Shown: positions 4,038 to 53,501 of the stretch, piece after piece
Layout of the letters: every line of letters starts with the position of its first letter
How positions within the stretch are numbered: the first letter of the stretch is position 1
NCBI GenBank assembly: GCA_032622095.1
Contig: CP136063.1
Location: forward strand, 218,629,982 to 218,693,981
DNA: 64,000 nt
From: Siphonodentalium dalli
Lineage: Eukaryota; Mollusca; Scaphopoda; Gadilida; Siphonodentaliidae
Direction of reading: 5' to 3'
The notes under the pieces: model-generated
The model's input: the letters and a program-made list of their open reading frames with translations, nothing else
What the model was told of the DNA's origin: nothing
Databases searched by the model: none
Made by a program: the position numbers and the translations under genes

Positions 4038-7000
4038 TATTTGTATTTTTTAGATTAACTTGACCATGAATCTCTGGACAGATAGCAGACTACAACTCAC
4101 TAGTTAAATTTGCATTTTGCAGATTAACTTGACCATGAATCTCGGGACAGATAGCAGACTAAGATTCGCGTGTTAAATTTGTATTTTGTAGATAAACTTG
4201 ACCATCAATCTCGGGACAGATAGCAGCCTAAGATTCACTAGTTAAATTAGTATTTTGTAGATTAACCTGACTATGACTCTCGGGACAGATATCAGACTAA
4301 GACTCATTAGTTAAATTTGTATTTTGTATATTAACTTGACCATGAATCTCGAGACATATAGCAGACTAAGACTCACGTGTTAGATTTGTATTTTGGAGAT
4401 TAACTTGACCATGGATCTCGGGACAGATAGCAGACTAAGATTCACTTGTTAAATTTGTATTTTATATATTAACTTGACCATGAATCTCTCTGGACAGATA
4501 GCAGCCCAAGACTCACATGTTAAATTAGTATTTTGTAGATTAACTTGAACATGAATCTCTCTGGACAGATAGCAGCCCAAGACTCACATGTTAAATTTGT
4601 ATTTTGTAGATTAACTTGAACATGAATCTCTCTGGACAGATAGCAGCCCAAGACTCACATGTTAAATTTGTATTTTGTAGATTAACTTGAACATGAATCT
4701 CTCTGGACAGATAGCAGCCCAAGACTCACATGTTAAATTTGTATTTTGTAGATTAACTTGACCATGAATAACGGGACCGATTGCAGCCTAAGACTCACAT
4801 GTTAAATTTGTATTTTGTAGATTAACTTGAACATGAGTCTCTCTGGACAGATAGCAGCCCAAGACTCACATGTTAAATTTGTATTTTGTAGATTAACTTG
4901 ACCATGAATAACGGGACCGATTGCAGCCTAAGACTCACATGTTAATTTTGTATTTTGTAGATTAACTTGACCATGAATAACGGGACCGATTGCAGCCTAA
5001 GACTCACGTGTTAAATGTGTATTTTGTAGATTAACTTGAACACGAATAACGGGACCGATTGCAGCCTAAGACTCACGTGTTAAATTTGTATTTTGTAGAT
5101 TAACTTGACCATGAATAACGGGACCGATTGCAGCCTAAGTCTCACGTGTTAAATTTGTATTTTGTAGATTAACTTGACCACGAATAACGGGACAGATAGC
5201 AGCCCAAGACTCACATGTTAAATTTGTATTTTGTAGATTAACTTGAACATGAATCTCTCTGGACAGATAGCAGCCCAAGACTCACATGTTAAATTTGTAT
5301 TTTGTAGATTAACTTGAACATGAATCTCTCTGGACAGATAGCAGCCCAAGACTCACATGTTAAATTTGTATTTTGTTGATTAACTTGAACATGAATCTCT
5401 CTGGACAGATAGCAGCCCAAGACTCACATGTTAAATTAGTATTTTGTAGATTAACTTGACCATGAATAACGGGACCGATTGCAGCCTAAGACTCACATGT
5501 TAAATTTGTATTTTGTAGATTAACTTGAACATGAATCTCTCTGGACAGATAGCAGCCCAAGACTCACATGTTAAATTTGTATTTTGTAGATTAACTTGAA
5601 CATGAATCTCTCTGGACAGATAGCAGCCCAAGACTCACATGTTAAATTTGTATTTTGTAGATTAACTTGAACATGAATCTCTCTGGACAGATAGCAGCCC
5701 AAGACTCACATGTTAAATTTGTATTTTGTAGATTAACTTGAACATGAATCTCTCTGGACAGATAGCAGCCCAAGACTCACATGTTAAATTTGTATTTTGT
5801 AGATTAACTTGACCATGAATAACGGGACCGATTGCAGCCTAAGACTCACATGTTAAATTTGTATTTTGTAGATTAACTTGAACATGAATCTCTCTGGACA
5901 GATAGCAGCCCAAGACTCACATGTTAAATTTGTATTTTGTAGATTAACTTGAACATGAATCTCTCTGGACAGATAGCAGCCCAAGACTCACATGTTAAAT
6001 TTGTATTTTGTAGATTAACTTGACCATGAATAACGGGACAGATAGCAGCCCAAGACTCACATGTTAAATTTGTATTTTGTAGATTAACTTGAACATGAAT
6101 CTCTCTGGACAGATAGCAGCCCAAGACTCACATGTTAAATTTGTATTTTGTAGATTAACTTGAACATGAATCTCTCTGGACAGATAGCAGCCCAAGACTC
6201 ACATGTTAAATTTGTATTTTGTAGATTAACTTGACCATGAATAACGGGACCGATTGCAGCCTAAGACTCACGTGTTAAATTTGTATTTTGTAGATTAACT
6301 TTACCATGAATAACGGGACCGTTTGCAGCCTAAGACTCACGTGTTAAATTTGTATTTTGTAGATTAACTTGACCATGAATAACGGAACCGATTGCAGCCT
6401 AAGACTCACGTGTTAAATTTGTATTTTGTAGATTAACTTGACCATGAATAACGGGACCGATTGCAGCCTAGGACTCACGTGTTAAATTTGTATTTTGTAG
6501 ATTAACTTGACCATGAATCTCGGGACCTATAGCAGACTACAACTCACGTGTTAAATTTGTATTTTGTAGATTAACTTGAACATGAATCTCTGGACAGATA
6601 GCAGCCCAAGACTAACATGTTAAATTTGTATTTTGTAGATTAACTTGACCATGAATAACAGGACAGATAGTAGCCCAAGACTCACGTGTTAAATTTGTAT
6701 TTTGTAGATTAACTTGACCATGAATAACGGGACCGATTGCAGCCTAAGACTCACGTGTTAAATTTGTATTTTATTGATTAACTTGACCATGAATAACGGG
6801 ACCGATTGCAGCATAAGACTCACGTGTTCAATTTGTATTTTGTATATTAACTTGACCATGAATAACGGGATCGATTGCAGCCTAAGACTCACGTGTTAAA
6901 TTTGTATTTTGTAGATTAACTTGACCATGAATAACGGGACAGATAGCAGCCCAAGACTCACGTGTTAAATTTGTATTTTGTAGATTAACTTGACCATGAA

Positions 7001-7390
7001 TAACGGGACCGATTGCAGCCTAAGACTCACATGTTAAATTTGTATTTTGTTGATTAAGTTGGCCATGAATCTCGGGACAGATAGCAGACTAAGACTCGCG
7101 TGTTAACTTTGTATTTTGTAGATTAACTTGACCATGAATCTCGGGACCTATAGCAGACTACAACTCACGTGTTAAATTTGTATTTTGTAGATTAACTTGA
7201 ACATGAATCTCTGGACAGATAGCAGCCCAAGACTAACATGTTAAATTTGTATTTTGTAGATTAACTTGACCATGAATCTCGGGACAGATAGCAGCCTAAA
7301 ACTCACATGTTAAATTTGTATTCTGTAGGTTAAGTTGGCCATGAATCTCGAGACAGATAGCAGACTAAGACTCACGTGTTAAATTTGTGT
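4038..7390. repeat. 69/71-bp minisatellite with two interleaved unit types
   Basis: About 48 head-to-tail units share gttaaatttgtattttgtag and attaacttga. Two versions of the middle alternate: type A reads aacgggaccgattgcagcct (69 bp) and type B reads tctctctggacagatagcag (71 bp). B units form runs around 4490-4740 and 5230-6180; A units dominate 6230-7030. Edge units are more diverged (tctcgggacagatagcagac). Short ORFs across the array arise from the repeat and are not genes. Confidence 0.95.
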
Positions 7391-7473
7391 TTTGTGTTTT
7401 GTTTTGACCATCTCTGGAGAGATAGAGTCGATCTGGTTCTGTTCCTCTCAGATAGACGACACCGCTGACCGAC

Positions 7474-7649
7474 CTGACGCTCATTGTTTCTAACCCCCTA
7501 GCATATATCTGGCTCAGCCTCGTATATAATGGGGCTATGTCTTTATCCATCGCAACCTCGAACTCTGCGTGAATACTGCCTTGTCTCAGTGAAAGTATTT
7601 GTATGTCCAAGATTCCGCGAAGGTTTTGTGAATCGAATACCACGAACAG
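7474..7649 (-). CDS. SEA-domain exon (C-terminal half) of an EGF-SEA protein
   Basis: Minus-strand exon starting after a good acceptor (ccttttcag, then CTGTTCGTGG). It encodes LFVVFDSQNLRG, then ILSLRQGSIHAEFEVAMDKD and a helix-like LYTRLSQIYARGLE. The strand-turn GS followed by a hydrophobic strand is the SEA signature. In SEA mucins cleavage occurs within G-S-V-V-V; here the motif is G-S-I-H-A, so Gly-Ser is kept. The exon starts in phase 0, matching the phase-0 donor of the exon at 13112-13221. The 3' border is a guess: a donor GTCAG/GTCGGT sits at 7474, and the frame stays open to about 7365. A following exon is not recognised; the 69/71-bp array follows downstream. Confidence 0.7.
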
Positions 7650-7706
7650 CTGAAAAGGAAGTATGACGTAATTTTTTTAATGCACCAATCTGAAATAAAC
7701 ATTTAG

Positions 7707-8336
7707 TAGATCATGTCACGAACCTCAACTCTACACCCGTAGTGAGCCTCACATAGATGTAATATCTATTCCTGACTGTCGTCTATTCATGACTGTTAGG
7801 GGTACCATACGGGTGGTATCAGTTAGCTGTCGTGTCATACGTCTCTATTTTGGTTACGTCCGTAGAGATCAAACTCCACCAGTTCAAAACCTGGGAACGT
7901 TTTGATAGTCTGACAGGGACGTTTATACCCTAAACAAAACGTTGCAGGTAATATACTTCCAGTTAACACCCGTTCCTTAATAATGTATTTCACAGAACTG
8001 TAGGTGAAGCCCCCAGTACGAGAGTGTACGAACTATGTGACTTTCTTGAGCTGATTTTGATTTGCATTGCTTTCAATCATGGAATTTCTACCGGGCAATA
8101 ATTCAATGTTTATTGCGATATCGACTTCCAAAAAATACTACAATCTCGAGCAGAGACCACCCCGGTTGTGAAATAGATTAGAAGGAACACATATTAACAA
8201 ATCAATATAATGCGTTGTTTGTTTGATTTTATAAAGTTCCCCGTCAGAACAGGTAGAACATGAACAATTCCCAATTTAAAATTGTGGAATATGATATCTA
8301 CGGGCGTGGCCAGAGTAGAGACTCTGGCATAATCTA
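7707..8336. mobile_element. Foldback element, tagatcatgtcat family, copy A
   Basis: The left end tagatcatgtcacgaacctc is mirrored at the right end (ctctggcataatcta). The subterminal block aaaacctgggaacgttttga is related to those of copies at 24255-24762 and 26024-26779. No ORF of note and no clear target duplication in this copy. Confidence 0.6.
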
Positions 8337-8356
8337 CCTCTGGGTTCCCTACCAAT

Positions 8357-8623
8357 TAGGGCTGCAACGATACACAACGATGTGACAATGCGATACGTAT
8401 CACGATACATGACCAACGATACGATAAGTATCACGATACGCAAAAACCATGTTTCCGAGGATTTTCTACCTAAATTGCTAAAAAAAACACAGTTAATATG
8501 GGATATTTTCGCATTCGATGACCTAAAATTGTGACATTTGTGTATCGCGATACACTTCATACGATATGATACGCGTGAAAGCGTATCGTGATACATCAAT
8601 TACGATGAATCGTTGCAGCTCTA
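8357..8623. mobile_element. hAT-type MITE with 8-bp target duplication
   Basis: A 267-bp element begins tagggctgcaacgat and ends atcgttgcagctcta, near-perfect terminal inverted repeats. It is flanked by ctaccaat (8349-8356) and ctatcaat (8624-8631), an 8-bp duplication with one mismatch. The 8-bp duplication and the gggctgcaacgat end are typical of hAT non-autonomous elements. Internal sequence is rich in gtatcacgatac palindromes. Confidence 0.82.
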
Positions 8624-8649
8624 CTATCAATGCAAACATTTGTGCCGAA

Positions 8650-11600
8650 CAAAGACGATATCGGTGTGATACGTACGATAAAGGTTGTATGTAGTATAGT
8701 GGTACTGTGGTTTGGTAATACACAAAATAATACACACGGTCGAGCGGCCGTATCAGTGTGATACGTACGATAAAGGTTGTTTGTATTATAGTGGTTTGGT
8801 AATTCACAAAATAATACACACGGTCGAGCGGCCGTATCAGTGTGATACGTACGATAAAGGTTGTTTGTATTATAGTGGTTTCGTAATACACAAAATAATA
8901 CACACGGTCGAGCGGCCGTATCAGTGTGATACGTACGATAAAGGTTTAATGTATTATAGTGGTACTGTGGTTTGGTAATACACAAAATAATACACACGAT
9001 CGAGCGGCCGTATCAGTGTGATACGTACGATAAAGGTTGTTTGTATTATAGTGGTTTGGTAATACACAAAATAATACACACGGTCGATTGGCCGTATCAG
9101 TGTGATACGTACGATAAAGGTTGTTTGTATTATAGTGGTTTGGTAATACACAAAATAATACACACGGTCGAGCGGCCGTTTCAGTGTGATACGCACGATA
9201 AAGGTTGTATGTAGTATAGTGGTACTGTGCATGGTTTGGTAATACACAAAATAATACAAACGGTCGAGCGGCCGTATCAGTGTGATACGTACGATAAAGG
9301 TTGTTTGTATTATAGTGGTTTGGTAATACACAAAATAATACACACGGTCGAGCGGCCGTATCAGTGTGATACGTACGATAAAGGTTTAATGTATTATAGT
9401 GGTACAGTGGTTTGGTAATACACAAAATAATACACACGGTCGAGCGGCCGTATCAGTGTGATACGCACGATAAAGGTTGTATGTATTATAGTGGTACTGT
9501 GCATGGTTTGGTAATACACCAAAATAATACAAACGGTCGAGCGGCAGTATCAGTGTGATACGTACGATAAAGGTTGTATGTATTATAGTGGTATTGTGAT
9601 TTGGTAATACACAAAATAATACACACGGTCGAGCGGCCGTATCAGTGTGATACGTACGATAAAGGTTGTATGTATTATAGTGGTACTGTAGTTTGGTAAT
9701 ACACAAACTAATACACACGGTCGAGCGGCCGTATCAGTGTGATACGTACGATAAAGGTTGTTAGTATTATAGTGGTTTGGTAATACACAAAATAATACAC
9801 ACGGTCGAGCGGCCGTATCAGTGTGATACGTACGATAAAGGTTGTTTGTATTATAGTGGTTTCGTAATACACAAAATAATACACACGGTCGAGCGGCCGT
9901 ATCAGTGTGATACGTACGATAAAGGTTTAATGTATTATAGTGGTACTGTGGTTTGGTAATACACAAAATAATACACACGGTCGAGCGGCCGTATCAGTGT
10001 GATACGTACGATAAAGGTTGTTTGTATTATAGTGGTACTGTGGTTTGGTAATACACAAAATAATACACACGGTCGAGCGGCCGTATCAGTGTGATACGTA
10101 CGATAAAGGTTGTATGTATTATAGTGCTACTGTGGTTTGGTAATACACAACATAATACACACGGTCGAGCGGCCGTATCAGTGTGATACGTACGATAAAG
10201 GTTGTTTGTATTATAGTGGTTTGGTAATACACAAAATAATACACACGGTCGAGCGGCCGTATCAGTGTGATACGTACGATAAAGGTTGTTTGTATTATAG
10301 TGGTTTCGTAATACACAAAATAATACACACGGTCGAGCGGCCGTATCAGTGTGATACGTACGATAAAGGTTTAATGTATTATAGTGGTACTGTGGTTTGG
10401 TAATACACAAAATAATACACACGGTCGAGCGGCCGTATCAGTGTGATACGTACGATAAAGGTTGTTTGTATTATAGTGGTTTGGTAATACACAAAATAAT
10501 ACACACGGTCGATTGGCCGTATCAGTGTGATACGTACGATAAAGGTTGTTTGTATTATAGTGGTTTGGTAATACACAAAATAATACACACGGTCGAGCGG
10601 CCGTTTCAGTGTGATACACACGATAAAGGTTGTATGTATTATAGTGGTACTGTGCATGGTTTGGTAATACACCAAAATAATACAAACGGTCGAGCGGCAG
10701 TATCAGTGTGATACGTACGATAAAGGTTGTATGTATTATATTGATACTGTGATTTGGTAATACACAAAATAATACACACGGTCGAGCGGCCGTATCAGTG
10801 TGATACGTACGATAAAGGTTGTATGTAGTATAGTGGTACTGTGGTTTGGTAATACACAAAATAAAACACACGGTCGAGCGGCCGTATAAGTGTGATACGT
10901 ACGATAAAGGTTTAATGTATTATAGTGGTACTGTGGTTTGGTAATACACAAAATAATACACACGGTCGAGCGGCCTTATCAGTGTGATACGTACGATAAA
11001 GGTTGTTTGTATTATAGTGGTATTGTGGTTTGGTAATACACAAAATAATACACACGGTCGAGCGGCCGTATCAGTGTGATACGCACGATAAAGGTTGTAT
11101 GTATTACAGTGGTACTGTGCATGGTTTGGTAATACACCAAAATAATACAAACGGTCGAGCGGCAGTATCAGTGTGATACGTACGATAAAGGTTGTATGTA
11201 TTATATTGATACTGTGGTTTGGTAATACGACAAAATAATACACACGGTCGATTGGCCGTATCAGTGTGATACGTACGATAAAGGTTGTTTGTATTATAGT
11301 GGTATTGTGGTTTGGTAATACACAAAATAATACACACGGGGGAGCGGCCGTATCAGTGTGATACGTACGATAAAGGTTGTGTGTATTATAGTGGTATTGT
11401 GGTTTGGTAATACACAAAATAATACACACGGTCGAGCGGCCGTATCAGTGTGATACGTACGATAAAGGTTGTATGTATTATAGTGGTATTGTGGTTTGGT
11501 AATACACAAAATAATACACACGGTCGATTGGCCGTATGAGTGTGATACGTACGATAAAGGTTGTATGTATTATAGTGGTATTGTGGTTTGGTAATACACA

Positions 11601-11800
11601 AAATAATACACACGGGAGAGCGGTCGTATCAGTGTGATACGTACGATAAAGGTTGTATGTATTATAGTGGTATTGTGGTTTGGTAATACACAAAATAATA
11701 CACACGGGAGAGCGGTCGTATCAGTGTGATACGTACGATAAAAGTTGTATGTTTTATAGTGGTTTGGTAATACACAAAATAATACACACGGGAGAGAAGC
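8650..11800 (+). repeat. Satellite derived from C2H2 zinc-finger codons (84/92-bp units)
   Basis: About 36 tandem units. The core unit is 84 bp, exactly the 28-codon size of one C2H2 finger plus linker. Read on the plus strand it gives HTVERPYQCDTYDKG followed by CLYYSGLVIHKIIH. Against the C2H2 consensus, the linker TGEKP, first Cys, Leu and both His are recognisable, but Cys2 is Tyr and the core Phe is Cys, so a unit should not fold around zinc. Many units carry an extra 8 bp (gtactgtg), giving 92 bp and a frameshift; some carry gtactgtgcat-type insertions. Blocks recur about 444 bp apart (near 9583 and 10027), showing higher-order amplification. Long minus-strand ORFs here are composition artefacts. 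Confidence 0.9.
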
Positions 11801-11916
11801 CGCATCAGTGTGAGTTATGTGATAAATCGTTTGCTCAGCCCGGGAGTCTGAAGATCCATAGGAGGACCCACGCCGTGCATTTATGCAGTTTGCATGCACT
11901 TTTCAGCTTATTTTAA
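11680..11916 (+). pseudogene. 3' end of a C2H2 zinc-finger coding region with one intact finger
   Basis: An open frame runs from the last satellite units into a finger with all consensus residues: HTGEKPHQCELCDKSF then LKIHRRTH (C-x2-C, Phe, Leu, H-x3-H). It then ends as AVHLC...FSLF and a stop at 11914. The unit just upstream is intermediate: linker HTGERSY but still CDTY and SC. Thus fingers decay in the 5' direction and the 3'-most copy is nearest the ancestor. No promoter, start or upstream exon is recognisable, and the region lies inside an intron of the minus-strand EGF-SEA gene. It could be a dead ZNF gene fragment or a transposon-captured finger exon. Confidence 0.55.
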
Positions 11917-11967
11917 TAATTTTGATTTGTTAAAATGGCATAAAGCTCTGGTTGTTTTCATGCGATA

Positions 11968-12122
11968 TAAAAGATCTTCAACTCGTTATGTTGGAATATA
12001 CAAAATTTTGAAACTCGTTTGATGAATTTCATTTACAACTCGTCTACGACTCGTTGTGAACCAAATTTATCAAACTCGTTTCGTAAAATCTCATATTCCA
12101 ACATAACGAGTTGGAGATCTTG
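11968..12122. repeat. Palindromic element with actcgt motifs
   Basis: Inverted arms: gatcttcaactcgttatgtt at the left and aacataacgagttggagatc at the right, with actcgtctacgactcgttg near the centre. A diverged copy lies at 44683-44830, including the same centre, so this is a dispersed family of about 150 bp. Confidence 0.75.
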
Positions 12123-13111
12123 ACTGACCCTCTATACCTTATACTCCTAGTTGTACCTGCTATTGAGATGCCAACATTATTTCATTGCACGTCCTTAATC
12201 ATCGAAGAGAGGGTGTATCGTTATTGTAATTGAAGTATACACGGCTTCCGTCCACTTGAATCGAAACAGTTCCTTTACGGCGTAAAAGGTATGACAAAAG
12301 ACCAAAATAATACCACTCTTTTTATATTTAATAACCCAATGATACAAAGTTAAAACAAAGCGTTTTTAAAAAACCATAATGAAATCAAGAAGCACCACAA
12401 ATCATGTCTCATTGCCGACAATCAACTTCAGATTTTTCTGCGACTTCTAGCATATCGAGTTCGGAATACGGATGGAACAACAGCCCCATTGTAAAACTTT
12501 GTGCATCAATTTCACGCTTATTTGTATGTATTCTTCAGATACATTAACCTTTGCTATACTAAAATAGTAGACCATTCGGGTACACATCTTTTAACTGACA
12601 GGGATATTCAATTTAGTTTAAAAAGGGTTAATATACGCTAAATGGGACATTGCTCATTCGATCTCATAAATTATTCTACTTAATTTCGATGGAGGTCTAT
12701 ATATAAGACAGGTTGACAAATAGACGGCATATTGTTATACCGGCTTCATATGCTCTTACCATGGTCACAGCAATTTTCCATCCGTCCTCAATTTTTCGCA
12801 CACAAGTGAAACGAACGCTCTCTTCTATACACCATATCAGGTATATGCCTCTTTGTCCCATGCTGTGCAAATTGCTGTTTTTTTAGTTTGTGACCCAAAC
12901 ATTGTGTTCAAAGTTGTATTGTTTGTTACTTCAATGTGTCTTTATGTTGTAATGTTCGTAGAATGGTAGCTAAAGTATATATCGACCTATAATATATTGA
13001 TACCTGGACAAAATCAAAAGCGAATATTATTTGGCGTATTTTGGATCGCAACCCGTCATATGGCTTTGAAGTAACAGTATGTGTATGTGCATTGGTATGC
13101 GTATGCCTTAC
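12123..13111. other. Intron sequence without recognised features
   Basis: This lies between the satellite and the SEA exon at 13112. No ORF with domain signal and no clear repeat was recognised. A short TG/CA-rich tract sits near 13076-13106, just inside the intron after the donor. Confidence 0.5.
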
Positions 13112-13221
13112 CGCATCACGAACTCTCTGTGCGAACTCCACGTAGACATCACTATCCCGGTCAGTTAAAGCCTTGTCGTAGTTGTGGTCAAGTGTAAGCG
13201 CTCCATGGAAGAATTGAGCAG
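13112..13221 (-). CDS. SEA-domain exon (N-terminal half) of an EGF-SEA protein
   Basis: A 110-bp minus-strand exon with strong borders: acceptor tttttttccag before CTGCTCAATT, and donor GATGCG/GTAAGG. The peptide AAQFFHGALTLDHNY then LTDRDSDVYVEFAQRVRDA matches the start of SEA domains (a first strand F-x-G-x-L-x-L, then a helix S-x2-Y-x2-F/L). It begins in phase 1, accepting the single G left by the EGF exon (G+CT gives Ala), and ends in phase 0, matching the next exon at 7649. Joined, the two SEA exons give about 95 residues, near the usual 100-120. The intron downstream is 5.5 kb and carries the zinc-finger satellite. Confidence 0.78.
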
Positions 13222-16855: not shown

Positions 16856-17683
16856 TATAAATATTAATATGAATAATAATAAAATATTAAGTTCTCCCCG
16901 CTCATCCATGCAAATTGTATTGTCATACTACCTCCATAGCGTTTGTAGCTCATTCGGGTATTGGAAAAGGCGTCTAAACTGTTTGACCATGTAGGTTACG
17001 TGTAGGCCGAGTGGTCACGTGTGTAACATGACTTCCGTTGGCAATGGTAACACATGCGCGTTACAAGTTACACGTATGTGGCTAAACCTGGCTATCATAT
17101 AACAGTGTACGAAACATACAATTCGAAATATTGACCGCGATACACTAATTCCTGTTTGTTCATTGGTCAACTGCTAATTTGGTCACCCGGTTTACATCCC
17201 AATAATGCAGAGATCTCTCGAGTGTAACACGAACAGGAAGTTACAAATTGTTCACCTAGTCTGACCTAATCACTAAACGCGATCAGCAGAATAATTGGAC
17301 GTGCTTTTCAAAGTTCAGTCGAATTGCTTCTGAAGCCAGTTATTTATGTCGATCACGTTATCGTAGCTAAGAGTTTGGAAATCTTATATCGGGCTGACTT
17401 AATGTGCTGCGTGGGCAGGTTCCAAATTATCGGTCATTTTGTGAAAATAAACAAGAATACACGCAGCTTTTTATGGGAATAAATCATCTAAAATCCATAT
17501 AAATATAAGCGAGTTTGTGTGTTATTGGGGGGGGGGGGGCACAACGCTGTGGTCGTTGGGGTACATTTAGTGTAAACCACAATGTAGCCCTACGACCAAC
17601 GCGCCGTATCCCACAATAACACACAACCACAACATTCATTTATTAAATATCACTGATTTCTTAAATATCACTGATTGACTCAC
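16856..17683. other. Intron sequence downstream of the EGF exon
   Basis: No coding signal. A 13-base poly-G run lies near 17527-17539 between two acaca-rich stretches (gttattgggg and cacaataacacacaa), a possible small foldback. Otherwise nothing recognised. Confidence 0.45.
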
Positions 17684-17950
17684 CCATGCAGTTGCCTGTA
17701 TCCAAGGACCGAAGATATCCCGATGAGCATGTGCAGAAACCTAGCGATGAACACCTCTCGAATGAATCAACGTCACACCCTTCGTGTGTGTCTATGATAC
17801 ACGTCGATTCGCTCATGCTGCCGTTTATATCGGACTCTTTATCGTCCACCCATGTCTGAGTTACGTTGGTGACTTCAGAGTCTACATACGACTGGTTACC
17901 GTCATCCATTGTTGTTACTTCGATGCCGTTAAAAAGCCGGAATTTATCAT
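17684..17950 (-). CDS. Linker plus EGF-like domain exon of an EGF-SEA protein
   Basis: A 267-bp minus-strand exon with acceptor gttgatttcag before ATGATAAATTC, and donor TGCATGG/GTGAGT. The first 50 or so residues are acidic and Ser/Thr-rich with three N-glycosylation sequons (NQS, NVT, NGS). Then comes a six-cysteine module with spacing C-x7-C-x7-C-x5-C-x-C-x12-C, including CSSLGFCTCSSGY, a standard EGF-like pattern. It opens in phase 1 and leaves one G (phase 1), which the SEA exon at 13221 accepts exactly. EGF followed by SEA is common in extracellular membrane mucin-like proteins, so a cell-surface role is likely but inferred. The upstream partner exon is not identified, and a MITE sits 45 bp upstream of the acceptor. 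Confidence 0.78.
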
Positions 17951-17995
17951 CTGAAATCAACATGAACACTTTTATTATGATTACAGACATTTTAA

Positions 17996-18243
17996 CCCTT
18001 TCATGACTAGAGCTTCCGGATTCTTTTGCGAAAGAACCCTGTGTCAATGCATAGGGCGCCTCACATATATAATAGAATGTATTTGCCTAACAATTATAGT
18101 TACATTGATATTGTAAGGCAATGCATTCTCTTACATAATTATGCGACAATGCGAGGCTCCCTATGAGAGACTCGCATATATAAGAGCATGTATTGGAACA
18201 GGATATTTAATGCTGCACTAGCACAGCTCTCACCATGAAAGGG
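17996..18243. mobile_element. piggyBac-type MITE, short version, next to the EGF exon
   Basis: A 248-bp element between TTAA (17992-17995) and TTAA (18244-18247), beginning ccctttcatgac and ending accatgaaaggg. Internal palindromes again use tgcattctctta. It occupies the intron immediately upstream of the EGF exon acceptor, leaving only 45 bp between the element and the exon. Confidence 0.85.
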
Positions 18244-24254: not shown

Positions 24255-24762
24255 TAGACCATGTCATTAATCTCTACTATAACTAACGCCCGTCGAGATC
24301 ATATTCCACCAGTATATACAAAACCTGGGGACTTTTTGAAGTATTGACAGGGAACCTTATAAAATCAAAAAAAATAACGCAGGGAACATATTTCTTAGTT
24401 ATTACCTGTTTCTGTAGGTGAAGGTCCCAGCTCGAGATTTCACGATTTAAGAGACTTTGTGCGCGATTTTGCTTTGCGTTGCTTATACTTATTGAATTTT
24501 TCCAGGGTAATTAATTTGATGTTTATTGTGATATCGGCTCATAAAAGTCACAGAAAAAAACATGCAATTTCGAGTTAGGACCTATCACTATAGTGAAGTA
24601 CATTATTAAAGAACAGGTATCAACTAAGAATTATATTCCCTGTGTTATGTTTTCGATTTTATAAGGTTACCTGTCAAAACTTCAAAAAGTTCCCAGGTTT
24701 TGTACTGATGGAATATGATCTCTACGGGCGTTGGTTAGAGTAGAGATTCATGGCATGATCTA
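24255..24762. mobile_element. Foldback element, tagatcatgtcat family, copy B, 9-bp target duplication
   Basis: 508 bp with ends tagaccatgtcattaatctc and gagattcatggcatgatcta. Both sides carry aatgttata (24246-24254 and 24763-24771), a perfect 9-bp duplication. Long subterminal inverted blocks contain aacctggggactttttgaag and its mirror. A 9-bp duplication is known for Mutator-like elements; assignment is inference. Confidence 0.75.
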
Positions 24763-26023: not shown

Positions 26024-26779
26024 TAGATCATGTCATGAATAACTACTCTGTAATCATGCCCGTAGGGATCATATTCCACCAGAAAAAAACCTTGGAACTT
26101 TTTGAAGTTTTGACAGGAACCTTATAAAGTCGAAACAGTAACGCGGGGAATATATGTCTTAGTTATTATCTGTTCCTTAATAATGTACTTCACTCTATGT
26201 GAGGGTCCCAACTCGAAATTTCATGCTTTACTTTGACCTTTCTGAGCCGATATCGCAATAAACATTGAATTAATTATTCATGAGAAATTCCATAATTGTA
26301 TGCGACGCAGAGAAAAATCGTTCACAAATTCAATTAAATCGTGAAATTTTTAGTTAGGACCTTCACCTGCCGTGAACTACATTATTACGGAACAGATAAT
26401 AACTAAGAAATATATTCCCCGCGTTATTTTGTCAACTGCACAAGGTTCCCTGTAAAAATAAAAAAAAAGTTCCAAGGCTTTGTAATATGGTCTTTATAGT
26501 GTGGTCTTCGGAGGGTTAGACCCAGAAGAAATTGGCAAAGAAGCGATCTTGGTGTCATACAGTCATTCAACGCGGGAGATTCTCTGCTACAACATATCCA
26601 AAATCCGCTAAAATCCGCTTTGGGGAAAATCCAGGATCTAAGATGGCAGAGATTCTCCCGCGTTGAATTACACCAAGATCGCTTCTTTACCAATTTCTTC
26701 TGGGTCAACCACCTTTTTTGCGTACCACGACCACACTATTACGGGCGTTAGCCAGAGTAGAGATTCATGACGTGGTCTA
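26024..26779. mobile_element. Foldback element, tagatcatgtcat family, copy C, hosting a nested MITE
   Basis: Ends tagatcatgtcatgaat and attcatgacgtggtcta are inverted. Subterminal aaccttggaactttttgaag is mirrored by agttccaaggctttg. Both flanks carry tacacactgc, offset by a TA run on the right. A 242-bp element is inserted at 26497-26738. Confidence 0.72.
26497..26738. mobile_element. Nested MITE with TTA target duplication (PIF/Harbinger-like)
   Basis: Begins tagtgtggtcttcg and ends cacgaccacacta, flanked by TTA at 26494-26496 and 26739-26741. Removing it and one TTA restores atatggtctttacgggcgtt, which matches atatgatctctacgggcgtt in copy B. Inner inverted arms contain cgcgggagattctctgc and gcagagattctcccgcg. 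A 3-bp TTA duplication fits PIF/Harbinger. Confidence 0.8.
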
Positions 26780-27654: not shown

Positions 27655-30600
27655 ACAGGCAGTGTGAAAAGACCACCAATCATATCACACAGGGAGCGCG
27701 TAAAGACCACCAATCATATCGCACAGGGAGCGCGTAAAGACCACCAATCATATCGCACAGGCAGTGTGAAAAGACCACCAATCATATCACACAGGCAGTG
27801 TGAAAAGACCACCAATCATATCACACAGGCAGCGCGAAAAGACCACCAATCATATCGCACAGGCAGTGTGAAAACACCACCAATCATATCACACAGGCAG
27901 CGCGAAAAGACCACCAATCATATCGCACAGGAAGCGCGAAAAGACCACCAATCATATCACACAGGCAGCGCGAAAAGAAGACTGCCAATCATATCACACA
28001 GGCAGCGCGAAAAGACCACCAATCATATCGCACATGAAGTGTGAAAAGACCACCAATCATATCGCACAGGCAGCGCGAAAAGACCACTAATCATATCGCA
28101 CATGAAGTGTGAAAAGACCACCAATCATATCGCACAGGCAGCGCGAAAAGACCACCAATCATATCGCACATGAAGTGTGAAAAGACCACCAATCATATCG
28201 CACAGGCAGCGCGAAAAGACCACTAATCATATCACACATGAAGTGTGAAAAGACCACTAATCATATCGCACATGAAGTGTGAAAAGACCACCAATCATAT
28301 CGCACATGCAGCGCGAAAAGAAGACCACCAATCATATCGCACAGGCAGCGCGAAAAGACCACCAATCATATCGCACATGCAGTGTGAAAACACCAACAGT
28401 CATATCGCACAGGCAGCGCGAAAAGACCACCAATCATATCGCACAGGCAGTGTGAAAACACCAACAGTCATATCGCACAGGCAGCGCGAAAAGACCACCA
28501 ATCATATCGCACAGGCAGTGCGAAAAGCCACCAATCATATCGCACATGAAGTGTGAAAATACCACCAATCATATCGCACATGAAGTGTGAAAAGACCACC
28601 AATCATATCGCACAGGCAGCGCGAAAAGAAGACAACCAATCATATCGCACATGAAGTGTGAAAAGACCACCAATCATATCGCACATGAAGTGTGAAAAGA
28701 CCACCAATCATATCGCACATGCAGTGTGAAAACACCAACAGTCATATCGCACAGGCAGCGCGAAAAGACCACCAATCATATCGCACAGGCAGTGCGAAAA
28801 GCCACCAATCATATCGCACATGAAGTGTGAAAAGACCACCAATCATATCGCACATGAAGTGTGAAAAGACCACCAATCATATCGCACAGGCAGCGCGAAA
28901 AGAAGACAACCAATCATATCACACATGAAGTGTGAAAAGACCACTAATCATATCGCACATGAAGTGTGAAAAGACCACCAATCATATCGCACATGCAGCG
29001 CGAAAAGAAGACCACCAATCATATCGCACAGGCAGCGCGAAAAGACCACCAATCATATCACACAGGCAGTGTGAAAAGACCACCAATCATATCGCACAGG
29101 CAGCGCGAAAAGACCACCAATCATATCACACATGAAGTGTGAAAAGACCACCAATCATATCGCACATGAAGTGTGAAAAGACCACCAATCATATCGCACA
29201 GGCAGCGCGAAAAGACCACCAATCATATCGCACAGGCAGCGCGAAAAGACCACCAATCATATCACACAGGCAGTGTGAAAAGACCACCAATCATATCGCA
29301 CAGGCAGCGCGAAAAGAAGACCACCAATCATATCGCACAGGCAGCGCGAAAAGACCACCAATCATATCGCACATGCAGTGTGAAAACTCCAACAGTCATA
29401 TCGCACAGGCAGCGCGAAAAGACCACCAATCATATCGCACAGGCAGTGCGAAAAGCCACCAATCATATCGCACAGGCAGCGCGAAAAGACCGCCAAAGAT
29501 ATCGCACAGGCAGTGCGAAATGACCACCAATCATATCGCACAGGCAGTGCGAAAAACCACCAATCATATCGCACAGGCAGTGCGAAAACCACCAATCATA
29601 TCGCACAGGCAGCGCGAAAAGACCGCCAAACATATCGCACAGGCAGTGCGAAAAGACCACCAATCATATCGCACAGGCAGCGCGAAAAGAAGACCACCAA
29701 TCATATCACACAGGCAGCGCGAAAAGGCCGCCAAACATATTGCACAGGCAGTGTGAAAAGACCACCAATCATATCGCACATGCAGTGTGAAAACACCACT
29801 AATCATATCGCACAAGCAGTGTGAAAAGACCACCAATAATATCGCACAGGCAGCGCGAAAAGACCACCAATCATATCACACAGGCAGCGCGAAAAGACCA
29901 TCAATCATATCACACAAGCAGTGCGAAAAGACCACCAATCATATCGCACAGGCAGCGCGAAAAGAAGACCACCAATCATATCGCACAGGCAGTGTGAAAA
30001 GACCACCAGTCATATCGCACAGGCAGCGCGAAAAGACCACCAATCATATCGCACAGGCAGCGCGAAAAGACCACCAATCATATCGCACAGGCAGTGTGAA
30101 AAGACCACCAATCATATCACACAGGCAGTGTGAAAAGACCACCAATCATATCGCACAGGCAGTGTGAAAAGACCACCAATCATATCACACAAGCAGCGCG
30201 AAAAGACCATCAATCATATCGCACAGGCAGTGTGAAAACACCACCAGTCATATCGCACATGCAGTGTGAAAAGACCACCAATCATATGGCACAGGCAGTG
30301 TGAAAAGACCACCAATCATATCACACATGCAGTGTGAAAAGACCACCAATCATATCGCACAGGCAGTGTGAAAAGACCACCAATCATATCGCACAGGCAG
30401 CGCGAAAAGACCACCAATCATATCACACAGGCAGCGCGAAAAGACCATCAATAATATCGCACAGGCAGTGTGGAAAGACCACCAATCATATCGCACAGGC
30501 AGCGCGAAAAAACCACCAATCATATCGCACAGGCAGTGTGAAAAGACCACCATTCGAATCGCACAGGCAGTGTGAAAATACCACCAATCATATCACACAG

Positions 30601-33600
30601 GCAGCGCGAAAATACCATCAATCATATCGCACAGGCAGTGTGAAAACACCACCAGTCATATCGCACAGGCAGTGTGAAAAGACCACCAATCATATCGCAC
30701 AGGCAGCGCGAAAAGACCACCAATCATATCACACAGGCAGCGCGAAAAGACCACCAATCATATCGCACAGGCAGTGTGAAAAGACCACCAATCATATCGC
30801 ACAAACAGCGCGAAAAAACCACCAATCATATCGCACAGGCAGTGCGAAAAGCCACCAATCATATCGCACATGAAGTGTGAAAAGACCACCAATCATATCG
30901 CACATGAAGTGTGAAAAGACCACCAATCATATCGCACAGGCAGCGCGAAAAGAAGACAACCAATCATATCGCACATGAAGTGTGAAAAGACCACCAATCA
31001 TATCGCACATGAAGTGTGAAAAGACCACCAATCATATCGCACATGCAGTGTGAAAACACCAACAGTCATATCGCACAGGCAGCGCGAAAAGACCACCAAT
31101 CATATCGCACAGGCAGTGCGAAAAGCCACCAATCATATCGCACATGAAGTGTGAAAAGACCACCAATCATATCGCACATGAAGTGTGAAAAGACCACCAA
31201 TCATATCGCACAGGCAGCGCGAAAAGAAGACAACCAATCATATCACACATGAAGTGTGAAAAGACCACTAATCATATCGCACATGAAGTGTGAAAAGACC
31301 ACCAATCATATCGCACATGCAGCGCGAAAAGAAGACCACCAATCATATCGCACAGGCAGCGCGAAAAGACCACCAATCATATCACACAGGCAGTGTGAAA
31401 AGACCACCAATCATATCGCACAGGCAGCGCGAAAAGACCACCAATCATATCACACATGAAGTGTGAAAAGACCACCAATCATATCGCACATGAAGTGTGA
31501 AAAGACCACCAATCATATCGCACAGGCAGCGCGAAAAGACCACCAATCATATCGCACAGGCAGCGCGAAAAGACCACCAATCATATCACACAGGCAGTGT
31601 GAAAAGACCACCAATCATATCGCACAGGCAGCGCGAAAAGAAGTCCACCAATCATATCGCACAGGCAGCGCGAAAAGACCACCAATCATATCGCACATGC
31701 AGTGTGAAAACACCAACAGTCATATCGCACAGGCAGCGCGAAAAGACCACCAATCATATCGCACAGGCAGTGCGAAAAGCCACCAATCATATCGCACAGG
31801 CAGCGCGAAAAGACCGCCAAAGATATCGCACAGGCAGTGCGAAATGACCACCAATCATATCGCACAGGCAGTGCGAAAAACCACCAATCATATCGCACAG
31901 GCAGTGCGAAAAACCACCAATCATATCGCACAGGCAGTGCGAAAACCACCAATCATATCGCACAGGCAGCGCGAAAAGACCGCCAAACATATCGCACAGG
32001 CAGTGCGAAAAGACCACCAATCATATCGCACAGGCAGCGCGAAAAGAAGACCACCAATCATATCACACAGGCAGCGCGAAAAGGCCGCCAAACATATTGC
32101 ACAGGCAGTTTGAAAACACCACCAATCATATCGCACATGCAGTGTGAAAACACCACTAATCATATCGCACAAGCAGTGTGAAAAGACCACCAATAATATC
32201 GCACAGGCAGCGCGAAAAGACCACCAATCATATCACACAGGCAGCGCGAAAAGACCATCAATCATATCACACAAGCAGTGCGAAAAGACCACCAATCATA
32301 TCGCACAGGCAGCGCGAAAAGAAGACCACCAATCATATCGCACAGGCAGTGTGAAAAGACCACCAGTCATATCGCACAGGCAGCGCGAAAAGACCACCAA
32401 TCATATCGCACAGGCAGCGCGAAAAGACCACCAATCATATCGCACAGGCAGTGTGAAAAGACCACCAATCATATCACACAGGCAGTGTGAAAAGACCACC
32501 AATCATATCGCACAGGCAGTGTGAAAAGACCACCAATCATATCACACAAGCAGCGCGAAAAGACCATCAATCATATCGCACAGGCAGTGTGAAAACACCA
32601 CCAGTCATATCGCACAGGCAGTGTGAAAAGACCACCAATCATATGGCACAGGCAGTGTGAAAAGACCACCAATCATATCACACATGCAGTGTGAAAAGAC
32701 CACCAATCATATCGCACAGGCAGTGTGAAAAGACCACCAATCATATCGCACAGGCAGCGCGAAAAGACCACCAATCATATCACACAGGCAGCGCGAAAAG
32801 ACCATCAATAATATCGCACAGGCAGTGTGGAAAGACCACCAATCATATCGCACAGGCAGCGCGAAAAAACCACCAATCATATCGCACAGGCAGTGTGAAA
32901 AGACCACCATTCGAATCGCACAGGCAGTGTGAAAATACCACCAATCATATCACACAGGCAGCGCGAAAATACCATCAATCATATCGCACAGGCAGTGTGA
33001 AAACACCACCAGTCATATCGCACAGGCAGTGTGAAAAGACCACCAATCATATCGCACAGGCAGCGCGAAAAGACCACCAATCATATCACACAGGCAGCGC
33101 GAAAAGACCACCAATCATATCGCACAGGCAGTGTGAAAAGACCACCAATCATATCGCACAGGCAGCGCGAAAAGACCACCAATCATATCGCACAGGCAGC
33201 GCGAAATGACCATCAATCATATCGCACAGGCAGTGTGAAAAGACCACCAATCATATCGCACAGGCAGCGCGAAAAGACCACCAATCATATCGCACAGGCA
33301 GTGTGAAAAGACCACCAATCATATCGCACAGGTAGTGTGAAAAGACCACCAATCATATCGCACAGGCAGCGCGAAAAGACAACCAATCATATCGCACATG
33401 CAGTGTGAAAAGTCCACCAATCATATCGCATAGGCAGTGTGAAAAGACCACCAATCATATCGCACAGGCAGTGTGAAAAGACCACCAATCATATCGCACA
33501 GGCAGTGTGAAAAGACCACCAATCATATCGCACGGGCAGTGTGAAAAGACCACCAATCATATCGCACAGGCAGTGTGAAAAGACCACCAATCATATCGCA

Positions 33601-34424
33601 TAGGCAGTGTGAAAAGACCACCAATCATATCGCACAGGCAGTGTGAAAAGTCCACCAATCATATCGCACAGGCAGCGCGAAAAGACCACCAATCATATCG
33701 CACAGGCAGCGCGAAAAGACCACCAATCATATCACACAGGCAGCGCGAAAAGACCACCAATCATATCGCACAGGCAGTGTGAAAAGACCACCAATCATAT
33801 CGCACAGGCAGCGCGAAAAGACCACCAATCATATCGCACAGGCAGTGTGAAAAGACCACCAATCATATCGCACAGGCAGCGCGAAAAGACCACCAATCAT
33901 ATCACACAGGCAGCGCGAAAAGACCATCAATCATATCACACAGGCAGTGTGAAAAGACCACCAATCATATCGCACAGGCAGTGTGAAAAGACCACCAATC
34001 ATATCGCACATGCAGTGTGAAAAGACCACCAATCATATCACACAGGCAGTGTGAAAAGACCACCAATCATATCGCACAGGCAGTGTGAAAAGACCACCAA
34101 TCATATCGCACAGGCAGTGTGAAAAGACCACCAATCATATCACACAGGCAGTGTGAAAAGACCACCAATCATATCGCACAGGCAGTGTGAAAAGACCACC
34201 AATCATATCGCACAGGCAGTGTGAAAACACCACCAGTCATATCGCACAGGGAGCGCGAAAAGACCACCAATCATATCACACAGGCAGCGCGAAAAGACCA
34301 CCAATCATATCACACAGGCAGTGTGAAAAGACCACCAATCATATCACACATGCAGCGCGAAAAGACCACCAATCATATCGCACAGGCAATGTGAAAGGAA
34401 AATCAGTCATATCGCACAGACAAT
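27655..34424. repeat. 34-bp satellite array, about 200 units
   Basis: Head-to-tail units of gtgtgaaaagaccaccaatc plus atatcgcacaggca. Frequent variants are gcgcg for gtgtg, cacac for cgcac, catgaa for caggca, and a 3-bp longer form with gaagac. Units run without spacers. Many ORFs on both strands (IISHRQREKTTNHIAQ-like) rotate through frames because 34 is not a multiple of three, so they are not genes. Confidence 0.97.
28490..33160. repeat. Higher-order tandem duplication (2324/2357 bp) inside the 34-bp array
   Basis: The variant order in about 28490-30813 is repeated in about 30814-33160. Matching landmarks are 2324 bp apart up to about 29560 and 2357 bp apart afterwards, so the second copy gained 33 bp (the extra gaaaaaccaccaatcatatc unit near 31890-31920). 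Almost no other differences are seen, so the duplication is recent. Confidence 0.85.
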
Positions 34425-43879: not shown

Positions 43880-44680
43880 TGTCGGCACTTGGTTGTTTTG
43901 ACCAAAGCACCTGGACTTTATTTGTGACATGATTATCGTATATGCAATAGAATAGTTATATAGCTATAGTCATGCAACAATATTATTGTTGAACGGAGAA
44001 GGCAATCCCAATCGAATCTGACAGACGCAACGAACACATGATCCAGCTACATACTATGAAACTGTAGTTAATGCTATTGTATGCTTCACAATGTAGTTCA
44101 GATAGGTTCAGAATTCGCACGCGTGTATATGTGCATACATGTTTATAGGCTGGAGCCTCAAGAGGACTCATATGTTACTACTTGTATATAGCGAATTTCG
44201 TATGTTTTCTCAATGTTTCCACGTTGTGGGTTCTGAATAGTGCTGCTAATTTCAGTACTTGTCGTCTTGTGAGAAATCTGGTTCAAGATAATTTGATATC
44301 CCATGAAACACATTTATATCATTAAAAAGCCATTATATATTTCCTTGTATCTCACTAGTGATGACTAGGCGCCTGCTTCCCGGGATATTTGGCATCGCGC
44401 TAACAAAATTACCGCACGAATTAATACTATTTCGAAACGCCGCGCTTGACACCAACACCAGACGTTGCAAAAATGATTTCTTTGTTCTTTAAAATAAAAT
44501 TCTTGCCCAACTTCGTAGCACTAACGAAAATAGTCACAAAAACAAACTATATTTTTCGTCGACAGCGAGAGCGCGCAATACTATCGTATACGGTTGTGGT
44601 GCGTCTCTGACAACGCCGTACATGTATGCATGCATTTTTTAGATTCTTTTGAAGAGTTTGAAAAGCTCTACCTTTTTTCA
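43880..44680. other. Interval without recognised genes
   Basis: No ORF or repeat with support. Confidence 0.4.
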
Positions 44681-44682
44681 TG

Positions 44683-44830
44683 TGATACACTATATCTTCG
44701 ACTCGTTATTTTAGGATATAAGATTTTATTAATCTCGTTAGGTAAATTTGATTCCCAACTCGTCTACGACTCGTTGTGAATCAAATTTATCAAACTAGTT
44801 TCATAAAATTATATATTCCAACTCGTTGGA
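44683..44830. repeat. Palindromic element with actcgt motifs, copy 2
   Basis: Shares atcttcgactcgttatttt, then actcgtctacgactcgttg and tgaatcaaatttatcaaact with 11968-12122. Its arms are more diverged. Confidence 0.7.
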
Positions 44831-52967: not shown

Positions 52968-53501
52968 AAGAGTATTCTGTCGACATGACCATTGCATGTA
53001 ATTTGTAAATTGTAATTGACTCTATTTAATTACATTTTGGCAAATAATTGTTAGTAAATAGTAATTGAGCAATTATTAAATTATCAATTGTATGTAATTA
53101 AAGGCACATTTAAGCGGTTTGCGCTCCAAAGTACACCTAATAATAATCGCTTTGAATGTTTCACGGTATCGAAGTACGGCGATAAATTCCTTTCCACGAT
53201 CATTATATGTCACAAATTGATACATTGAAGTCATACAAAGTACAACTTTGAACACGATGATTTGGTTTCAATAAAAAACAAACAAACATAATTTTGAAAC
53301 TTCACGCACGACTTTCTCTTCGTTTTTATCATCACACTTATGAACATGCTTTAGTACCATAAACATTTGAGTGCAACGGCAGCACAACGTTTTCTTCCCA
53401 TGGTCTACAGTTGCAATGTGTAGGTGGCCGTCGACAAAAATTGAACCAGCTCTTAAAGGAAACGATCTCAAATTTATCGGGTGTGTTTCATGCAAAGCAT
53501 G
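52968..53501. other. Start of the claudin-like intron, nothing recognised
   Basis: AT-rich intron sequence. A 78-residue minus-strand ORF at 53268-53504 (CCRCTQMFMVLKHVHKCDDK region) has Cys/His but no finger spacing; not called. Confidence 0.4.

Follow-up and report, generated by a model that had tools for sequence, protein, structure and literature searches.

The window examined here, a 64,000-nucleotide stretch of Siphonodentalium dalli contig CP136063.1, contains a tandem array whose unit derives from the codons of a C2H2 zinc finger and which runs at its 3' edge into one intact finger. We consider it likely that a finger module was freed from coding selection and homogenized by unequal exchange, becoming a minisatellite that no longer codes and whose edge still bears an intact sister finger. 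The features of the array and the finger are as follows.

8658–8732, plus strand: U00, the truncated first unit; profile match from model position 18, linker part lost or degenerate
8733–11784, plus strand: 34 complete decayed finger units, U01–U35, of 84, 92, 93, 96 or 97 bp
8733–9256, plus strand: units U01–U06, near-identical to U17–U22, a block duplication within the array
10158–10682, plus strand: units U17–U22, second copy of the six-unit block, by comparison with U01–U06
11609–11784, plus strand: U34 and U35, nearest to U36; canonical linker start HTGE, in U35 also DKS
11785–11868, plus strand: U36, intact C2H2 finger (zf-C2H2), C-x2-C-x12-H-x3-H, TGEKP linker
11668–11916, plus strand: 82-residue open frame running from the last part of U34 through the whole of U35 and U36 into a non-finger tail

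Organization of the array

Anchored splitting at the core resolved 35 head-to-tail modules (8658–11784, the first partial) and an intact C2H2 finger from 11785, and Tandem Repeats Finder reported a period of 92 bp with 32.6 copies and 90% matches over 8875–11813. The partial module is named U00, the 34 complete units U01–U35 (U24 and U25 were merged and the number U25 is unused) and the finger U36. Among the 36 modules, U36 included, 18 are 92 bp long, 13 are 84 bp, three are 97 bp, and one each is 96 and 93 bp. Mean pairwise identity of U01–U35 is 95% with gaps ignored, and the units are head-to-tail, homogenized and non-coding, as in minisatellite or satellite DNA. The original prediction had placed the array at 8650–11916; the array itself is real, but it starts at about 8658, and 11872–11916 is the tail of an open reading frame without a finger.

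An nhmmer search of the 64-kb window for further units returned two matches (E 2.3 and 3.3), none beyond chance, and a 25-base unit core had 0 exact matches in viral, bacterial and archaeal contigs, a collection that says little on an animal satellite. The array (8651–11784) has no CpG depletion: its observed/expected ratio is 1.85, compared with 0.94 in the window outside 8301–12000; 192 of the 204 consensus CpG cells are kept, five have become TG or CA, and seven are otherwise changed.

Zinc-finger origin and loss of coding sense

In translation, the consensus unit gives HTVERPYQCDTYDKGC(M/L)YYSGLVIHKII, one C2H2 finger plus linker in canonical spacing. It retains 10 of the 13 C2H2 anchors used for scoring, a list taken from general background, compared with a maximum of 6 when it was shuffled 3000 times and every frame and register was considered, and five further tandem arrays in the window scored only 2–4 of the 13. 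The identification of the 84-bp unit with a finger and its linker thus stands far above both shuffled and in-window controls. Comparison of U36 with the unit consensus gave 46 of 84 identical bases at the true register, a value that none of 2000 shuffles equaled at their best register (maximum 42). Two array ORFs spanning several units scored 66.8 and 53.4 bits with Pfam zf-H2C2_2, above its cut-off of 40 bits; two in-frame units scored 39.7 bits, just below the cut-off, and a frame-broken unit 15.7 bits (E 0.02). Casein also passed on one array ORF (27.4 vs 23 bits, E=4.6e-06), with no single stretch passing, which indicates that repeats inflate such Pfam scores.

Cys1, Leu and both His are still encoded in the consensus, as had been claimed, with exceptions in a few units: Leu has become Phe in U02, U13 and U18, and the first His has become Gln in U07, U10, U23 and U29. 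Cys2 and the core Phe are absent from the consensus and gone in 35 of 35 units, so that none has the two Cys and two His ligands and core Phe of a C2H2 finger. The replacements first described, Tyr for Cys2 and Cys for Phe, hold for most units (31/35 and 30/35, respectively), the remainder having His in place of Cys2 (U06, U09, U22 and U28) or Leu in place of Phe (5/35).

The lengths of 20 of the 34 complete units are not multiples of three, and stops fall within the first 57 columns in U00, U06, U12 and U24. The longest plus-strand open stretch in the array is 108 residues, and no single frame runs through it as in a PRDM9-type coding minisatellite. As a check on coding constraint, polymorphic sites before the indel were counted by codon position in place of a dN/dS fit, and their distribution was flat (7/20, 7/20 and 8/19 at positions 1, 2 and 3). 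The frame-breaking lengths and the flat variation give no sign that the array is translated, in agreement with the predicted loss of coding constraint. Minus-strand open stretches across the array extend up to 182 residues and were taken as stop-poor repeat. The prediction had also attributed the broken frames to 8-bp insertions in 92-bp units; the frames are indeed broken, but the inserts measure 8, 9, 12 or 13 bp.

Unit exchange and length variants

The block U01–U06 differs from U17–U22, located 16 units away, at 1, 0, 0, 1, 0 and 3 columns in the successive units, and several distant units are identical (U02=U13=U18; U03=U14=U19; U05=U21; U17=U20). The recurrence of identical distant units and of the six-unit block points to block duplication and bears out amplification by unequal exchange.

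In trees rooted on U36, from which U00 was excluded, as it was from the U01–U35 statistics, U31 and U34+U35 split off before the other 31 units, with 95% support in the first tree; in the second tree this early branching was supported at 87/85 and was not starred, the bootstraps being unsettled. According to the authors of PMC3890296, Prdm9-type repeats cannot be placed meaningfully on trees, and since exchange distorts repeat trees, we used the branching order as a guide only. Within U01–U35, it is U35 that resembles the remaining units least (mean identity 0.918). The left edge has no such gradient, U01 being typical of the interior (0.959) and U00 low (0.812, its degenerate start included). 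The linker Gly is kept only in U31, U34 and U35, and the finger Ser only in U35; the concentration of three such units among the last five gave p 0.0015 in a test that was chosen post hoc and used 35 units, though U01–U35 comprise 34. Boundary units of amphioxus repeats escape homogenization, as stated in PMC3087553, and both the divergence of U35 and the early branching of U31, U34 and U35 agree with such an escape.

Apart from the insert, the 92-bp unit U15 is identical to the 84-bp units U17 and U20, and the 92-bp unit U30 to the 84-bp units U05 and U21. Most 92-bp units carry GTGG-TACT-GTGG or GTGG-TATT-GTGG at the insert, and slippage between the two GTGG words would delete exactly 8 bp. 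The tree needs 7 insert changes, at least 3 of them forced by starred branches; shuffled insert labels average 10 changes, and a count as low as 7 came up in just 11 to 20 of 500 shuffles, so the label is clustered. A single clade of all twelve 84-bp units, U35 included, was rejected (p-AU 0.0008), whereas one of the 11 interior 84-bp units alone was not (p-AU 0.173), two sets of identical rows having been left free in both tests. Clustering of the label and the latter result suggest that most interior 84-bp units may share one origin. Many of them are probably 8-bp deletions rather than the ancestral core, which makes the idea of an 84-bp ancestral core doubtful for the interior units.

The intact finger at the 3' edge

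U36 encodes HTGEKPHQCELCDKSFAQPGSLKIHRRT followed by His, the last His lying at 11869–11871, and has both Cys, both His, the core Phe and Leu and a TGEKP linker. Its ORF matched Pfam zf-C2H2 with E=7.3e-07 (29.7 bits, cut-off 25.2), which confirms that the 3'-most unit is a normal finger. A search of the PDB with the U35–U36 peptide recovered zinc-finger proteins, with ZNF568 at the top and PRDM9 and CTCF near the top among the best 60 of 202 matches. In a six-frame scan of the window, U36 was the sole match to the core pattern C..C...F.....L..H, and a looser finger pattern gave four other matches, three with internal stops and one (17571–17639) without the core Phe and Leu. A local profile placed all other candidates under 0 bits; its 14 rows included U36, whose 37.2 bits are therefore partly by construction.

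U36 shares 50–57% identity with U01–U35, and U35, at 55%, stands no nearer to it than interior units do. Over columns 1–28, 29–48 and 49–84 the mean identity is 81%, 50% and 36%, and that of U35 is 86%, 50% and 33%. Along the 34 units, C2H2-likeness shows no upward trend (Spearman 0.02, p 0.90). An overall decay gradient toward the finger, as originally envisaged, was rejected on these last results and on the distance of U35; what survives of it is the linker Gly in three units and the Ser in one. Because U35 is overall no closer to U36 than the interior is, U36 is probably a sister finger rather than a recent parent copy. Judged by the C2H2 consensus, U36 keeps an older state: both Cys are present in it, as is the Phe lost from all 35 units. 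The claim that the intact finger is ancestral rather than derived is favored to this extent by the consensus, and the trees, for which U36 was our chosen root, are no proof of it.

Probable host gene and neighboring elements

The array lies between two probable exons on the opposite strand.

13112–13221, minus strand: probable exon with the first SEA half (AG before, GT after)
7650–13111, minus strand: inferred host intron of 5462 bp from the exon model, with the array antisense inside
7376–7649, minus strand: probable exon with the second SEA half; it shares its 3' end and donor with a 69-bp array

Both exons are preceded by AG and followed by GT and join in phase. Singly, the two ORFs had no Pfam match at E up to 0.1; joined, they matched profile positions 2–93 of 106 of PF01390 (SEA) with E=8.6e-04, the score being under the Pfam cut-off (19.8 vs 26.4 bits), and the joined sequence had no significant match in the PDB (best E 0.63). 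The host is thus probably a minus-strand SEA-domain gene, and the predicted gene model supports the earlier view that the array sits within the intron of a gene on the minus strand. A minus-strand ORF at 17664–18086 had no convincing Pfam match; we take its cysteine pattern to be EGF-like, and it may represent a more upstream exon of the SEA gene. A second minus-strand stretch (53427–53456, LRAGSIFVDGHLHI), which presumably looks like a second SEA half, had no Pfam match. The sequence at 12879–13055 is, in inverted orientation, 69% identical to 53115–53278, which adjoins this other SEA-like stretch.

The 69-bp array (4039–7395, about 48 copies) extends into the inferred SEA exon at its 3' end and carries repeated copies of the exon's 5' splice site, with 40 exact GTGAGT on the minus strand over 4039–7415 (3377 bp); this exact count was used because a fuzzy split of the array yielded 12 anchors only. 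Its unit spans a host intron–exon border if exon 7376–7649 is real. Other elements flank the zinc-finger array within the predicted intron.

8357–8623, no strand assigned: MITE, left of the array; 18-nt terminal inverted repeats, 89%
11971–12121, no strand assigned: foldback repeat, right of the finger; arms 74 nt, 78%

The MITE, which we presume to be hAT-like, has an 8-bp target-site duplication, CTACCAAT/CTATCAAT, read by eye and matching at 7 of 8 positions. The segment 11942–12102 has a relative at 44662–44822, and the intron segment 7856–8336 is a dispersed repeat with relatives at 24286–24762 and 26024–26482. Elsewhere in the window, a 34-bp array (27655–34419, about 198 copies) has strong strand asymmetry, with an AT skew of about 0.5, and minus-strand ORFs at 133–1442, which had no match in Pfam, resemble a Penelope-like reverse transcriptase with a GIY-YIG end. 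Searching the window with Rfam at gathering thresholds and scanning it for tRNAs returned nothing.

Proposed history and alternative explanations

On the favored reading of a finger module turned into satellite, a C2H2 gene fragment with at least two different fingers would have come to lie antisense in the intron of the SEA-domain gene. One finger would have lost Cys2, the core Phe and its reading frame, and unequal exchange or slippage may then have multiplied this decayed finger, in blocks of up to six units, into some 35 copies arranged head to tail. Interior units would have been homogenized to decayed types, while units at the 3' edge and the sister finger would have escaped and kept older states. 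Units would switch between 92 and 84 bp as 8 bp are gained or lost between the short GTGG repeats, and the array is presumably without function. Since U36 differs strongly from the units, the founder may also have been other than a neighbor of U36.

A mirage-type origin, in which tandem duplication was seeded over a zinc-finger intron–exon boundary and U36 is the leftover part of the exon, seems unlikely to us. The adjoining 69-bp array does span and repeat the inferred SEA exon end and donor, like the mirages of PMC3087553, and the duplication process may be active in the same host gene; the 84-bp unit, however, is a whole finger with anchors in both halves, so that it looks exonic throughout, and inspection of U36, short of a systematic search, identified no splice boundary there. 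We find it improbable as well that the array is what is left of a gene whose zinc fingers multiplied while still coding, in the manner of PRDM9, and decayed later. The 84-bp modules and retained linker are as in coding minisatellites, and PRDM9 repeats are likewise 84 bp long, with first-position repeats differing from the rest (PMC3890296); yet neither Cys2 nor the core Phe survives in any of the 35 units, so the losses either predate amplification or were spread by later homogenization, and unit-by-unit decay alone is insufficient.

That the resemblance is due to chance, an intact finger happening to stand beside an unrelated satellite, is very improbable. The low identity of U36 over columns 49–84 and the passing of the unrelated Casein family would fit it, but the anchor count in canonical spacing lies well beyond the shuffled maximum and the array enters the finger in frame and in register. 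Returning to the satellite reading, we suggest, as a tentative possibility only, that a zinc-finger codon block and, in the 69-bp array, a splice junction of the same gene feed one minisatellite process, with the edge finger as a fossil of the source.

Comparison with known systems

The array resembles that of PRDM9, which has 84-bp finger units in tandem with turnover of copy number and first-position repeats distinct from the others (PMC3890296). It is unlike PRDM9 in that the latter is translated and varies at contact residues, whereas here zinc ligands and frame are lost, and Pfam scans of chosen ORFs near the array found no PR/SET domain. KRAB zinc-finger gene clusters reportedly also contain decayed finger modules beside intact ones. 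Here, by contrast, one decayed module type has been amplified and homogenized, and the ORFs scanned with Pfam had no KRAB match.

Amphioxus mirages, as portrayed in PMC3087553, are likewise gene-derived minisatellites with boundary units outside homogenization, but no intron–exon border was found in the 84/92-bp unit, and the 69-bp array is the better fit. In transposon-seeded satellites, a source sequence reportedly became head-to-tail repeats (PMC4079207 and PMC7004042); here the source is instead a protein-coding finger. Among the literature matches listed, as represented by titles and abstract openings, none described a satellite founded by zinc-finger codons. Coding minisatellites, and satellites that other sequences have seeded, already exemplify the principle itself.

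The origin of many satellite families is obscure as the starting sequence is lost; here the module is recognizable by its codon anchors, and an intact finger is present at the edge. The array is thus a small, clear example of a gene fragment becoming satellite DNA and a test case for edge escape and for indel switching between repeat units, and it illustrates a possible fate of a PRDM9-like 84-bp minisatellite once selection on the protein is gone.
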